A stretch of DNA of 64,000 bases from Rubrobacter xylanophilus (GTDB taxonomy: Bacteria; Actinomycetota; Rubrobacteria; Rubrobacterales; Rubrobacteraceae), in the NCBI RefSeq assembly GCF_007164525.1, contig NZ_AP019791.1, forward strand, positions 1,351,501-1,415,500. Direction: 5' to 3'. Within the stretch, counting starts at the first letter, position 1, and every line of letters begins with the position of its first letter. Below, piece by piece: positions 5,447 through 7,822 of the stretch. The notes below the pieces were generated by a model. It was not told the origin of the DNA. It saw nothing but the letters and a program-made list of their open reading frames with translations, and searched no databases. The position numbers and the translations under genes were made by a program.

Positions 5447-6081
5447 TCAGAGGCGCTTCCGGAGGGCGGCGCGCCAGCTCGCCGAGAGGGCTTCGACCGC
5501 GAGGAGGCGCTGGATCCCCTCCCGGTCTCGCCGGTCGCGGTGCATGAGGCGGTTGGCCTCGGAGACGGTGGCCCACGGCGAGGGCCGTTCCAGGAGCGTC
5601 AGGGCGTCCCCGGCGCCGACCCTCCTCCAGGACCCGCAAACAGAAGCCCGTCATACCGCTCCTCAGGGTGAGGGCGGCGAGGTCTCTCACCCCGAACCTC
5701 CAGGCCGGCTTGTAGCAGGGCTGGCGCGGCTGGCTCACCTGCACCACCGCACCCCCGAGCCGGCAGACGTCCCCGACGCAGACCTCCTCCTCCTCGGTGA
5801 GGCTCCGGGTGGAGAGGTTCTCGCCGAAGGCGGCGGGGCCGATCTCTCTGCCGAGCATCTCCCGCCAGCGTACGTAGTGCTCCGCCGGGCAGACGAGGGC
5901 GGCCTTCTCGGGCCCGCCGTGGTTCTCACGGTCGGCCTGCTCGTCGCCGGCGAAGCCCTCCCACCCGAGCCACACCGCCCCGGTGACGGGCACCTTGAAG
6001 ATCGCGCCTCGAAGCTCTTCTTTTTCCCCCGAGCCGCGACACGCGCCCGAGGTTCACGCCGAGGACGCGGGGAGCCGTCAT
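5447..6081 (-). pseudogene. MOSC-domain (YiiM-like) gene with two apparent +1 frameshifts
   Basis: Three consecutive reading frames together make a normal-length MOSC protein of about 210 residues. Frame 1 starts at ATG 6081 (MTAPRVLGVNLGRVSRL), and its ATGA overlaps the stop of the GAF gene. Frame 2, from about 6026, carries AIFKVPVTGAVW, GDEQADRENHGGPEK, the AFGENLSTRSL loop and the likely molybdenum-cofactor cysteine in QPRQPCYKP. Frame 3, from about 5622, gives VGAGDALTLLERPSPW through a C-terminal ALRKRL and stops at 5447. Removing one G from the GGGGGAAAAA run near 6026 and one G from a GGG near 5622 restores a single frame. MOSC/YiiM proteins are linked to molybdenum-cofactor-dependent detoxification. 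It is a real pseudogene or two sequencing errors; a product from the uncorrected middle frame would start at GTG 5993. Confidence 0.8.
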
Positions 6082-6560
6082 CCGGGCTTCCCGGCGAGCG
6101 CGGCGACCCGGGGGGCCACGATGCGGGAGACCTCCTCCAGGAGCCGCTCGTCCTCTTCTCCGAAGGCCCCGACCTCGTCGCTGTCGACGTCGAACTGGCC
6201 GACGATCCTGCCTGCGTGGCGGATCAGGACGACGATCTCCGAGCGGGTGCTGAGGGAACAGGCCAGGTAGTTCTCGACCTCGCGCACGTCCTCGACGAGC
6301 TGGTTCTCACCCTCGGCGACCGCGGTGCCGCAGACGCCCTCGCCGACCCGGATCCTCGCGTGCGAGGCCGGGGCGCTGCAGGGCCCGAGCACGAGTTCGT
6401 CTCCCTTCAGTAGATAGATGCCGGTCCAGTGCCAGCGCGGGTGCGACCCGTGCAGAAACTCGACCACCCTCTGCAGCACCTCGCGGTCGGGCTCGTCGGA
6501 GACCGCGAGCCGTTGGATCTCCTCGAGAAGCCCCATACGCTTCGTTCCGGCCCCGGGCAT
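6078..6560 (-). CDS. GAF-domain protein, free methionine-(R)-sulfoxide reductase-like
   Basis: A 160-residue single GAF domain resembling fRMsr (YebR/MsrC), which reduces free methionine-R-sulfoxide. Family blocks are WHWTGIYLLKGDELVLGP, RIRVGEGVCGTAVAE, YLACSLSTRSEIVVL and GQFDVDSDEVGAFGEED. Relative to E. coli Cys84/Cys94/Cys118, the last two are kept as Cys77 and Cys101 with identical spacing, but the first is His67. An extra Cys61 (GPCSAP) sits six residues earlier. Either the resolving chemistry differs or the domain senses redox state rather than catalyses. It is third in the globin-MarR-GAF-MOSC operon: 3 bp after the MarR stop and overlapping the MOSC start as ATGA. Confidence 0.82.
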   Translation of the reverse strand: MPGAGTKRMGLLEEIQRLAVSDEPDREVLQRVVEFLHGSHPRWHWTGIYLLKGDELVLGPCSAPASHARIRVGEGVCGTAVAEGENQLVEDVREVENYLACSLSTRSEIVVLIRHAGRIVGQFDVDSDEVGAFGEEDERLLEEVSRIVAPRVAALAGKPG

Positions 6561-6563
6561 CCT

Positions 6564-7169
6564 CTAACCACCTCCCCCCTGTACGTGGAGCTCGTGTTCG
6601 GGACAGTCCACCCTGAGCTCGCGCACGGCGAGCGGGACGTCGAGCAGCGCGCAATGGTGCGGCCTCTCCCGCCCGGGGTGCGCATCGGGGCGAAAAAAAC
6701 GGCAGCTGAGGCACATCCGGGCCCGCACGAGCCCCTCCCGCTGCAGCGAAGCGACGAGGCGCAAGAGCGCCCCGAGCAAAACCTCCTTCTCCTCCCCGCC
6801 GAGCTCCCCGAGGGGTTCCCGCACGGCCCCGGACCAGCCGGAGAGCTCCCCGGCGATGCTCCGGCCGGCCCCGGTGAGCCGCAGCGTGACGTAGCGGCGA
6901 TCCTCCGGCCACTCCTCGCGCACGAGCAGCCCCTTCCTCTGCAGGGCATCCACCGCCCCGCTCGCGGTCGCCGGGGTGAGTCCGAACTCACGGGCGAGCT
7001 CCCCGACCCGTCGCAGCTCGACCGGCCGGTGGAGGAGGTAGACGAGAAAGCGGGCCTGTATCGGGCTCAGGCCCCGCCGTCCGGCCTCCTCGCGCAGCAA
7101 GGCCTCCAGGGCCTGCGAGAGGCGCTCCAGCGCGTCGGCGAGCTTGCTCTCTATCTCATTCCCGCTCAG
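6564..7169 (-). CDS. MarR-family transcriptional regulator with C-terminal Cys/His module
   Basis: About 201 residues. The MarR winged helix-turn-helix is clear: GLSPIQARFLVYLLHR, ELAREFGLTPATASGAVDAL, RKGLLVREEWPEDRRYVTLRL. After the dimerisation helix comes an extra tail with Cys and His in metal-ligand spacing: MCLSCRFF, RERPHHCALLD, LRVDCPEH. No ATG, GTG or TTG lies in frame ahead of the first helix. The best start is CTG at 7169, whose CTGA overlaps the globin stop, behind GGGAAGGGAG. TTG at 7100 would delete helix 1. It lies between the globin and GAF genes and probably regulates its own operon through the palindrome at 7776-7790. Confidence 0.82.
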   Translation of the reverse strand: MSGNEIESKLADALERLSQALEALLREEAGRRGLSPIQARFLVYLLHRPVELRRVGELAREFGLTPATASGAVDALQRKGLLVREEWPEDRRYVTLRLTGAGRSIAGELSGWSGAVREPLGELGGEEKEVLLGALLRLVASLQREGLVRARMCLSCRFFRPDAHPGRERPHHCALLDVPLAVRELRVDCPEHELHVQGGGG

Positions 7170-7756
7170 AAGCTCCCTTCCCTGGCGTACGGCCGGCTCC
7201 AGAGCGTGACGTGCAACACGACCGCCTTGAACCACGCCTGATGCATCTTCTCGACCTCTTCCTCCGGATGTCCCCCGTCCTCCAGGAACCGCCGCACCGT
7301 CGCGGTTATGGGATAGATGAAGGAGATCATGTACCGCAGCGGGATCTCCTCGGGGGCTTCCACCCCGTCGGTGCGGTTCTTCTTCTCCCGCGCGTGCCGG
7401 AGGGCTATCTCGTGCTGGTAGTCGAGCCATTGCTGGTCGTAGGGCCTGCGGCACACGTCCAGCACCCACCGCTTGAACCGCCCCCTGACCCTCTCCAGGT
7501 ACTCCTCTATGGGCCGCCCTTCGCGGTCGCTGAAGTAGTAGACCAGATGCGGATGGTCGGCGACGAACCCGTACCACAGATCCAACACCTCGTCGAGCCG
7601 GCCCTCGAGCACGTCCCCCGCCATCCGCAGATAACGCTCGTCCTCCTCCGTGAAGAGCACCGTCTGCCGCAGAAGATCCAACTCCTCCAGGCTCACCGGG
7701 GAGCGCGCCAGCTCCCGCGCCCCGTAGGCATACCCCGGTATGCCGGCCTCCGCCAT
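7166..7756 (-). CDS. Protoglobin-domain haem protein
   Basis: A 196-residue single-domain protoglobin. The signature is YQHEIALRHAREKKNRTDG followed by IPLRYMISFIYPITATV. The predicted proximal haem ligand is His121, by alignment to the conserved GLRH of archaeal and bacterial protoglobins. Protoglobins bind O2, CO and NO; some act as sensors or NO/peroxynitrite-handling proteins. The start is ATG 7756, about 5 nt after GGGGGTGG; an upstream in-frame start at 7822 would run through the promoter and operator and is rejected. First gene of a four-gene operon with MarR, fRMsr-like GAF and MOSC, which suggests a response to nitrosative or oxidative stress (inference). Confidence 0.88.
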   Translation of the reverse strand: MAEAGIPGYAYGARELARSPVSLEELDLLRQTVLFTEEDERYLRMAGDVLEGRLDEVLDLWYGFVADHPHLVYYFSDREGRPIEEYLERVRGRFKRWVLDVCRRPYDQQWLDYQHEIALRHAREKKNRTDGVEAPEEIPLRYMISFIYPITATVRRFLEDGGHPEEEVEKMHQAWFKAVVLHVTLWSRPYAREGSF

Positions 7757-7775
7757 GCGAACCACCCCCAAATCA

Positions 7776-7790
7776 TTTAGGACTCCTAAA
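7776..7790. promoter_or_regulatory. Palindromic operator TTTAGGA-C-TCCTAAA of the globin operon
   Basis: A perfect 15-bp inverted repeat (7-bp arms, 1-bp centre) covering about -3 to +12 of the predicted transcript and 19 bp upstream of the globin ATG. Position and symmetry are those of a MarR-type repressor site, and the operon encodes a MarR protein, so autoregulation is the simplest reading. Confidence 0.7.
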
Positions 7791-7793
7791 CAC

Positions 7794-7822
7794 ATTATCC
7801 CTTCGCCGGGGCGTGGGGTCAA
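7794..7822 (-). promoter_or_regulatory. Sigma-70-type promoter of the globin-MarR-GAF-MOSC operon
   Basis: On the minus strand TTGACC (7817-7822) is followed by a 17-bp spacer and GATAAT (7794-7799). The predicted start of transcription is near 7787, inside the palindrome. The -35 element overlaps the last codons of the upstream alcohol dehydrogenase gene. Confidence 0.75.

Follow-up and report, generated by a model that had tools for sequence, protein, structure and literature searches.

A conserved protoglobin–MarR gene pair in Rubrobacter xylanophilus, probably a stress module with a dedicated Cys4-tailed regulator

The gene cluster in Rubrobacter xylanophilus

The window analysed here, a stretch of 64,000 nucleotides from a single-contig 3.02 Mb Rubrobacteraceae genome (Rubrobacter xylanophilus), carries genes for a protoglobin, a MarR regulator, a GAF protein and a MOSC protein, all four on the minus strand. 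The cluster has a Zn-alcohol dehydrogenase gene (9030-7819) on one side and the gene of a protein with a lactate-racemase domain (5319-3748) on the other. An earlier note on this DNA had described a tightly packed operon for a haem gas-binding protein, a MarR regulator with an extra Cys/His tail, a relative of free methionine sulfoxide reductase (fRMsr) and a MOSC protein, and all four genes were located by profile or structure matches (Table 1). The packing proved as described at two junctions, where the CTG start of marR overlaps the globin stop (CTGA, also found in G014, a genome of the same genus, and in G026 and G027, from another Rubrobacteraceae genus) and the GAF stop overlaps the MOSC start (ATGA, at about 6080), but the MarR and GAF genes do not overlap and are separated by a 3-bp gap. 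The start of the cluster at 5447 holds only when the broken MOSC gene is counted to its end. The promoter and operator mentioned in the same note were both recovered: TTGACC-17-GATAAT was the only good promoter found in the 4 kb scanned, and the perfect palindrome TTTAGGANTCCTAAA lies directly after it, with TTTAGGAGTCCTAAA starting 3 bp past the -10 hexamer, over the expected transcription start.

Table 1. Features of the globin–marR locus, given in positions of the window
Feature	Positions	Strand	Basis
Sigma-70-like promoter TTGACC-17-GATAAT	7794..7822	-	10/12 matches; top-scoring of 3 hits over 4 kb; shuffle mean 0.0
Operator TTTAGGAGTCCTAAA	7776..7790	.	Cross-phylum conservation; sole genome site with ≤2 mismatches
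Protoglobin, 196 aa	7166..7756	-	PF11563 match; alignment to 2veb
MarR repressor with C-terminal Cys4 tail	6564..7169	-	CTG start; MarR domain match
Four-cysteine tail within MarR (putative Zn or Fe-S site)	6588..6731	-	Four invariant Cys
GAF protein, type II fRMsr-like, 160 aa	6078..6560	-	fRMsr structure alignments; local addition
MOSC (YiiM-like) gene with two frameshifts	5447..6080	-	Comparison with intact relatives; probable pseudogene

The globin, for which haem and gas binding are predicted, matched the protoglobin profile PF11563 over the whole domain (E 7.8e-39; 133.6 bits against a cut-off of 25) and the M. acetivorans protoglobin 2veb with 258 bits. Alignment to 2veb and 19 relatives indicated that the proximal His121 was kept, together with Trp61, Tyr62 and Phe94. 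The regulator has a MarR winged-helix domain (PF12802, 51.6 bits) and a C-terminal tail with the pattern C-x2-C-x16-C-x15-C. No match to this tail was found in Pfam or in the solved structures of the PDB, and no NCBIfam MarR model scored above its cut-off. In an AlphaFold model built from 25 relatives, the MarR body was confident and the tail moderate (pLDDT 50-76), and the four cysteines form a putative metal (Zn or Fe-S) site. We propose the Cys4-tailed MarR proteins as a subfamily, with the tail as a candidate for a new kind of sensor domain.

The GAF protein aligned with the fRMsr structures 1vhm, 4mmn, 3mmh, 3rfb and 1f5m (E 3e-23 to 7e-16), in agreement with the relationship suggested earlier. 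Its Cys77 and Cys101 align with Cys60 and Cys84 of TafRMsr, the two essential cysteines thus being kept in the type II pattern, and a type I enzyme was excluded, as His67 is found where type I has its third Cys. The MOSC gene is also present, but its frame is shifted twice by deletions of 2 and 5 bases compared with the intact copies in G014, G026, G027 and G038, and no full-length open MOSC reading frame was found in this genome, although the invariant Cys of the Moco site is present in the surviving frame (QPRQPCYK). Because the neighbouring genes align to G014 in full-length single frames without such breaks, the MOSC gene is probably a real pseudogene; for the same reason, and because one of the deletions is of 5 bp, a general problem of sequencing quality is unlikely to be behind the frameshifts.

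The first proposal, that the whole four-gene cluster is a functional unit, accords with the order globin-marR-GAF-MOSC, with an intact MOSC gene, in G026 and G027. It is very improbable, given that the MOSC gene is frameshifted in the window and that the GAF gene was found in three Rubrobacteraceae genomes only, being absent from G014, G015, G038 and the loci of other phyla; on this ground, the fRMsr gene was also rejected as a conserved partner. The core is the protoglobin with the Cys4-tailed MarR, and the GAF and MOSC genes are local additions.

The region from about 7740 to 6700-6600 of the window was 96-99% identical to G026 and G027, whereas the flanking dehydrogenase showed an identity of about 90% to G014, from the same genus, but of just about 50% to G026, and the flanking lactate-racemase gene was closest to G014. 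Since the block matches another genus while its flanks follow G014, these identities indicate a recent exchange of the globin–marR block between genera. In R. taiwanensis (L070, 5001-5690), a partial globin gene and a frameshifted MarR gene represent a decaying copy of the module, and a second, intact and distant protoglobin is encoded elsewhere (G015:C30) without MarR.

Conservation of the pair and its operator

A globin-based scan of genome contigs gave 66 loci from many phyla, in 44 of which a MarR homologue was encoded nearby on the same strand. Because loci selected in this way are biased towards the globin, the linkage was retested from the MarR side in 296 actinobacterial genomes, of which 15 had the MarR tail, 14 had a protoglobin and 12 had both. 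As a result, a protoglobin was found in 12/15 of the genomes with the tail compared with 2/281 of the others (Fisher p = 5e-17), and the two genes were adjacent in every one of the 12 genomes having both. In Chloroflexota, a glutaredoxin-like gene is often present between globin and marR, and in Bacteroidota, this place is taken by a DUF2024 gene and a gene for a Rof-like protein. Individual metagenome bins among the genomes may carry a wrong taxon name. The neighbourhood is thus conserved with respect to the globin and MarR genes, and not as the unit of four families that the earlier note had envisaged. The four tail cysteines were invariant in all 44 homologues with a readable tail, in the pattern C-x2-C-x(7-17)-C-x(about 15)-C, and were also present in 12 plasmid homologues; besides them, just eight MarR positions were invariant in the alignment A1, the cysteines being kept more strictly than the remainder of the protein.

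The linkage and the shared operator extend over at least ten phyla, and the operator lies at the protoglobin/MarR operons just past the -10 box; in most of the loci listed, it immediately follows a TTGACA-TATAAT promoter, and it often falls inside ATTATTTAGGAGTCCTAAATAAT. In 577 kb of related loci, we found 33 operator sites with ≤2 mismatches where a Markov model predicts 0.67, and such a site was present at 27 of the 44 loci with MarR compared with 1 of the 22 without it (p = 5e-6). The other 17 MarR loci had no site at this threshold; contigs are truncated in some cases, and a number of loci from Bacteroidota seem to be different. Furthermore, 12 plasmid homologue loci were chosen by MarR alone and searched at a threshold of ≤3 mismatches, and 10 of them had a site. 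At nine, the operator immediately preceded marR or the cluster to which marR belongs, and these span Thermus cytochrome P460, Nostoc tpx/marR and thioredoxin-MOSC, Spirosoma DUF2024, sphingomonads, rhizobia and Deinococcus; the single site of Hymenobacter volaticus, with 3 mismatches, lies 2.4 kb downstream and may be due to chance. The operator was accordingly observed also at MarR genes or operons without a nearby protoglobin (Thermus P460, Nostoc, Sphingopyxis, rhizobia and Deinococcus).

As a plain genome-wide marker, the operator was rejected: family-wide counts of the 13-mer with 1 mismatch were near those of a backward-pattern control, so that the evidence for it is positional. No second site with ≤2 mismatches was found in the 3.02 Mb genome of R. 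xylanophilus. A large regulon in this genome was therefore rejected, and the repressor seems to control the globin–marR operon only. Autorepression by MarR is strongly implied by the position of the operator over the promoter. The sequences themselves show the pairing and linkage of the two genes, the presence and placement of the operator and the invariance of the Cys4.

Two protoglobin genes located 4.9 kb apart in a Pirellulaceae bin (L022, 4906-10486) each have an identical operator of their own, and in a member of Leptolyngbyaceae (L048, 268-4746), a MOSC gene and a protoglobin gene, each with the operator, are followed by a further globin gene and one for a Dps-like protein. In the open-access literature, no account was found of the regulator, of the operator TTTAGGANTCCTAAA, of DUF2024 with protoglobin or of MarR with protoglobin. 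Within this literature, the globin–marR module is undescribed so far, and its novelty is provisional.

Partner genes and the predicted response

The genes accompanying the regulator or the globin differ among hosts. In Thermus, a cytochrome P460 gene is in an operon with the Cys4-MarR gene; at the T. thermophilus HB27 pTT27 locus (L103, 3502-4543), which is a tractable laboratory system, the operator of this operon lies 10 bp before the P460 start. Thiol peroxidase and thioredoxin are the partners in Nostoc and sphingomonads, and catalase, TlpA, MOSC and truncated haemoglobin are those in Pararhizobium; elsewhere, protoglobin also occurs next to catalase together with a hexameric haem protein of the tyrosine-coordinated type. 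No denitrification genes were seen clustered with the module at the loci examined. Proteins of about 240-255 aa with no Pfam match adjoin the Cys4-MarR at L109 (4669-5385), L110 (4799-5542) and L107 (3331-4098), with rhizobia, Deinococcus and Spirosoma as hosts.

Because the partners include P460, thiol peroxidase, thioredoxin, glutaredoxin, catalase and MOSC, they together point to reactive nitrogen or oxygen species. The earlier proposal, that the operon senses and handles NO or reactive oxygen, is consistent with this redox or nitrosative theme, but the sensed chemical is not singled out by the partners; with catalase and thiol peroxidase among them, it may be peroxide or some other oxidant instead of NO.

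A more specific signal, namely hydroxylamine or N-hydroxylated bases together with NO, would match the handling of N-oxide species by each of P460, protoglobin and MOSC. In line with it are the presence of cytochrome P460 in the Thermus MarR operon, the reduction of hydroxylaminopurine by YiiM (PMC5818509, PMC3831636) and the recurrence of MOSC genes next to MarR or to its operator in three additional groups, with YiiM-like genes having the operator in cyanobacteria (about 28 bp upstream of the leptolyngbyacean MOSC gene, and before the thioredoxin gene upstream of the Nostoc one) and lying near MarR in rhizobia and, among Bacteroidota, in Hymenobacter. We consider this specific signal quite improbable, as the thiol peroxidase and thioredoxin partners in sphingomonads and Nostoc suggest peroxide, and MOSC, which most loci lack, is a broken gene in R. 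xylanophilus.

Taken together, we favour, with a probability of roughly 0.6, a two-gene stress module in which the protoglobin would be controlled by a dedicated, autoregulating MarR with a redox or nitrosative signal sensed by its Cys4, and the pair probably functions in defence against nitric oxide or oxidants. Without stress, a MarR dimer would be bound to TTTAGGANTCCTAAA over the transcription start, blocking its own operon. The Cys4 tail would coordinate metal, either as zinc or as an iron-sulphur cluster, or form redox-active thiols, and once it is oxidised or nitrosylated, the repressor would release the DNA, allowing the protoglobin to scavenge NO, peroxynitrite or O2-derived species. 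Host-dependent helpers under the same operator would be glutaredoxin, thiol peroxidase, cytochrome P460 and MOSC N-hydroxyl reductase, and the helper in this genome would be the fRMsr-like GAF protein. For this scheme, we infer the chemical that is sensed, the metal in the tail and the reaction and substrate of the globin.

Most MarR proteins bind small ligands, and the solved structures nearest to the modelled MarR were those of MarR proteins, including the haem sensor PefR at rank 36. These points would suit a tail that is structural zinc only, with a small ligand (phenolic, flavin or haem-related) in the MarR pocket and a globin for oxygen supply or an oxygenase-like reaction instead of detoxification, as would the unsettled physiology of protoglobins, for which a role in CO metabolism has also been proposed (PMC3820574). 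Such an arrangement is unlikely in our view, because the four cysteines are kept more strictly than other residues and thiol-redox or haem proteins recur as partners in different phyla, and we therefore prefer redox or nitrosative sensing by the tail.

More broadly, the regulators may constitute a cross-phylum MarR family that senses nitrosative or oxidative stress by a C-terminal Cys4 metal or Fe-S site and acts, through the near-universal operator TAGGANTCCTA, on a small, exchangeable regulon of interchangeable protoglobin, P460 (haem N-oxide enzymes), thiol peroxidases and MOSC. We offer this tentatively, at somewhat below even odds; if true, it would give protoglobins a physiological role. 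Protoglobins are well studied as proteins and engineering scaffolds, but their cellular role is unsettled, and the dedicated repressor with one conserved operator makes this role directly testable, because the agent that inactivates the repressor would be the signal that the globin answers. As the operator also precedes P460, thiol peroxidase and MOSC genes, it further provides a handle on several poorly understood stress genes in many phyla.

Relation to known systems

One-component redox regulators of the MarR family include OhrR, MgrA and HypR, with which the present regulator shares the winged-helix fold, a palindromic operator over the promoter and the layout of an autoregulated operon. 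It differs from them in that its cysteines are in a separate C-terminal Cys4 tail and that the operator TTTAGGANTCCTAAA has no match in the literature searched. The GAF protein resembles the type II fRMsr of Thermoplasma acidophilum (PDB 4mmn; PMC6211008) in having both essential cysteines and a His at the position of the third, type I cysteine, whereas it is only 160 aa long and linked to a globin operon, with its activity being predicted. With regard to the YiiM MOSC proteins (PDB 5yhh, 1o65), the intact relatives from the same operon align over the full length and have the invariant Cys in QPR-x-PC, but they score 154.5 bits against the cut-off of 294 for the NCBIfam 6-hydroxyaminopurine reductase model, and the copy in the window is frameshifted. 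Finally, the protoglobins of M. acetivorans and Aeropyrum pernix (PF11563; PDB 2veb, 7ute) are similar to the present globin in the full-length single-domain match, the proximal His and the distal Trp-Tyr pair. These have been studied as isolated proteins, that of M. acetivorans having peroxynitrite isomerase and nitrite reductase activity (PMC4020757), whereas the protoglobin gene described here is predicted to be under a dedicated MarR repressor.
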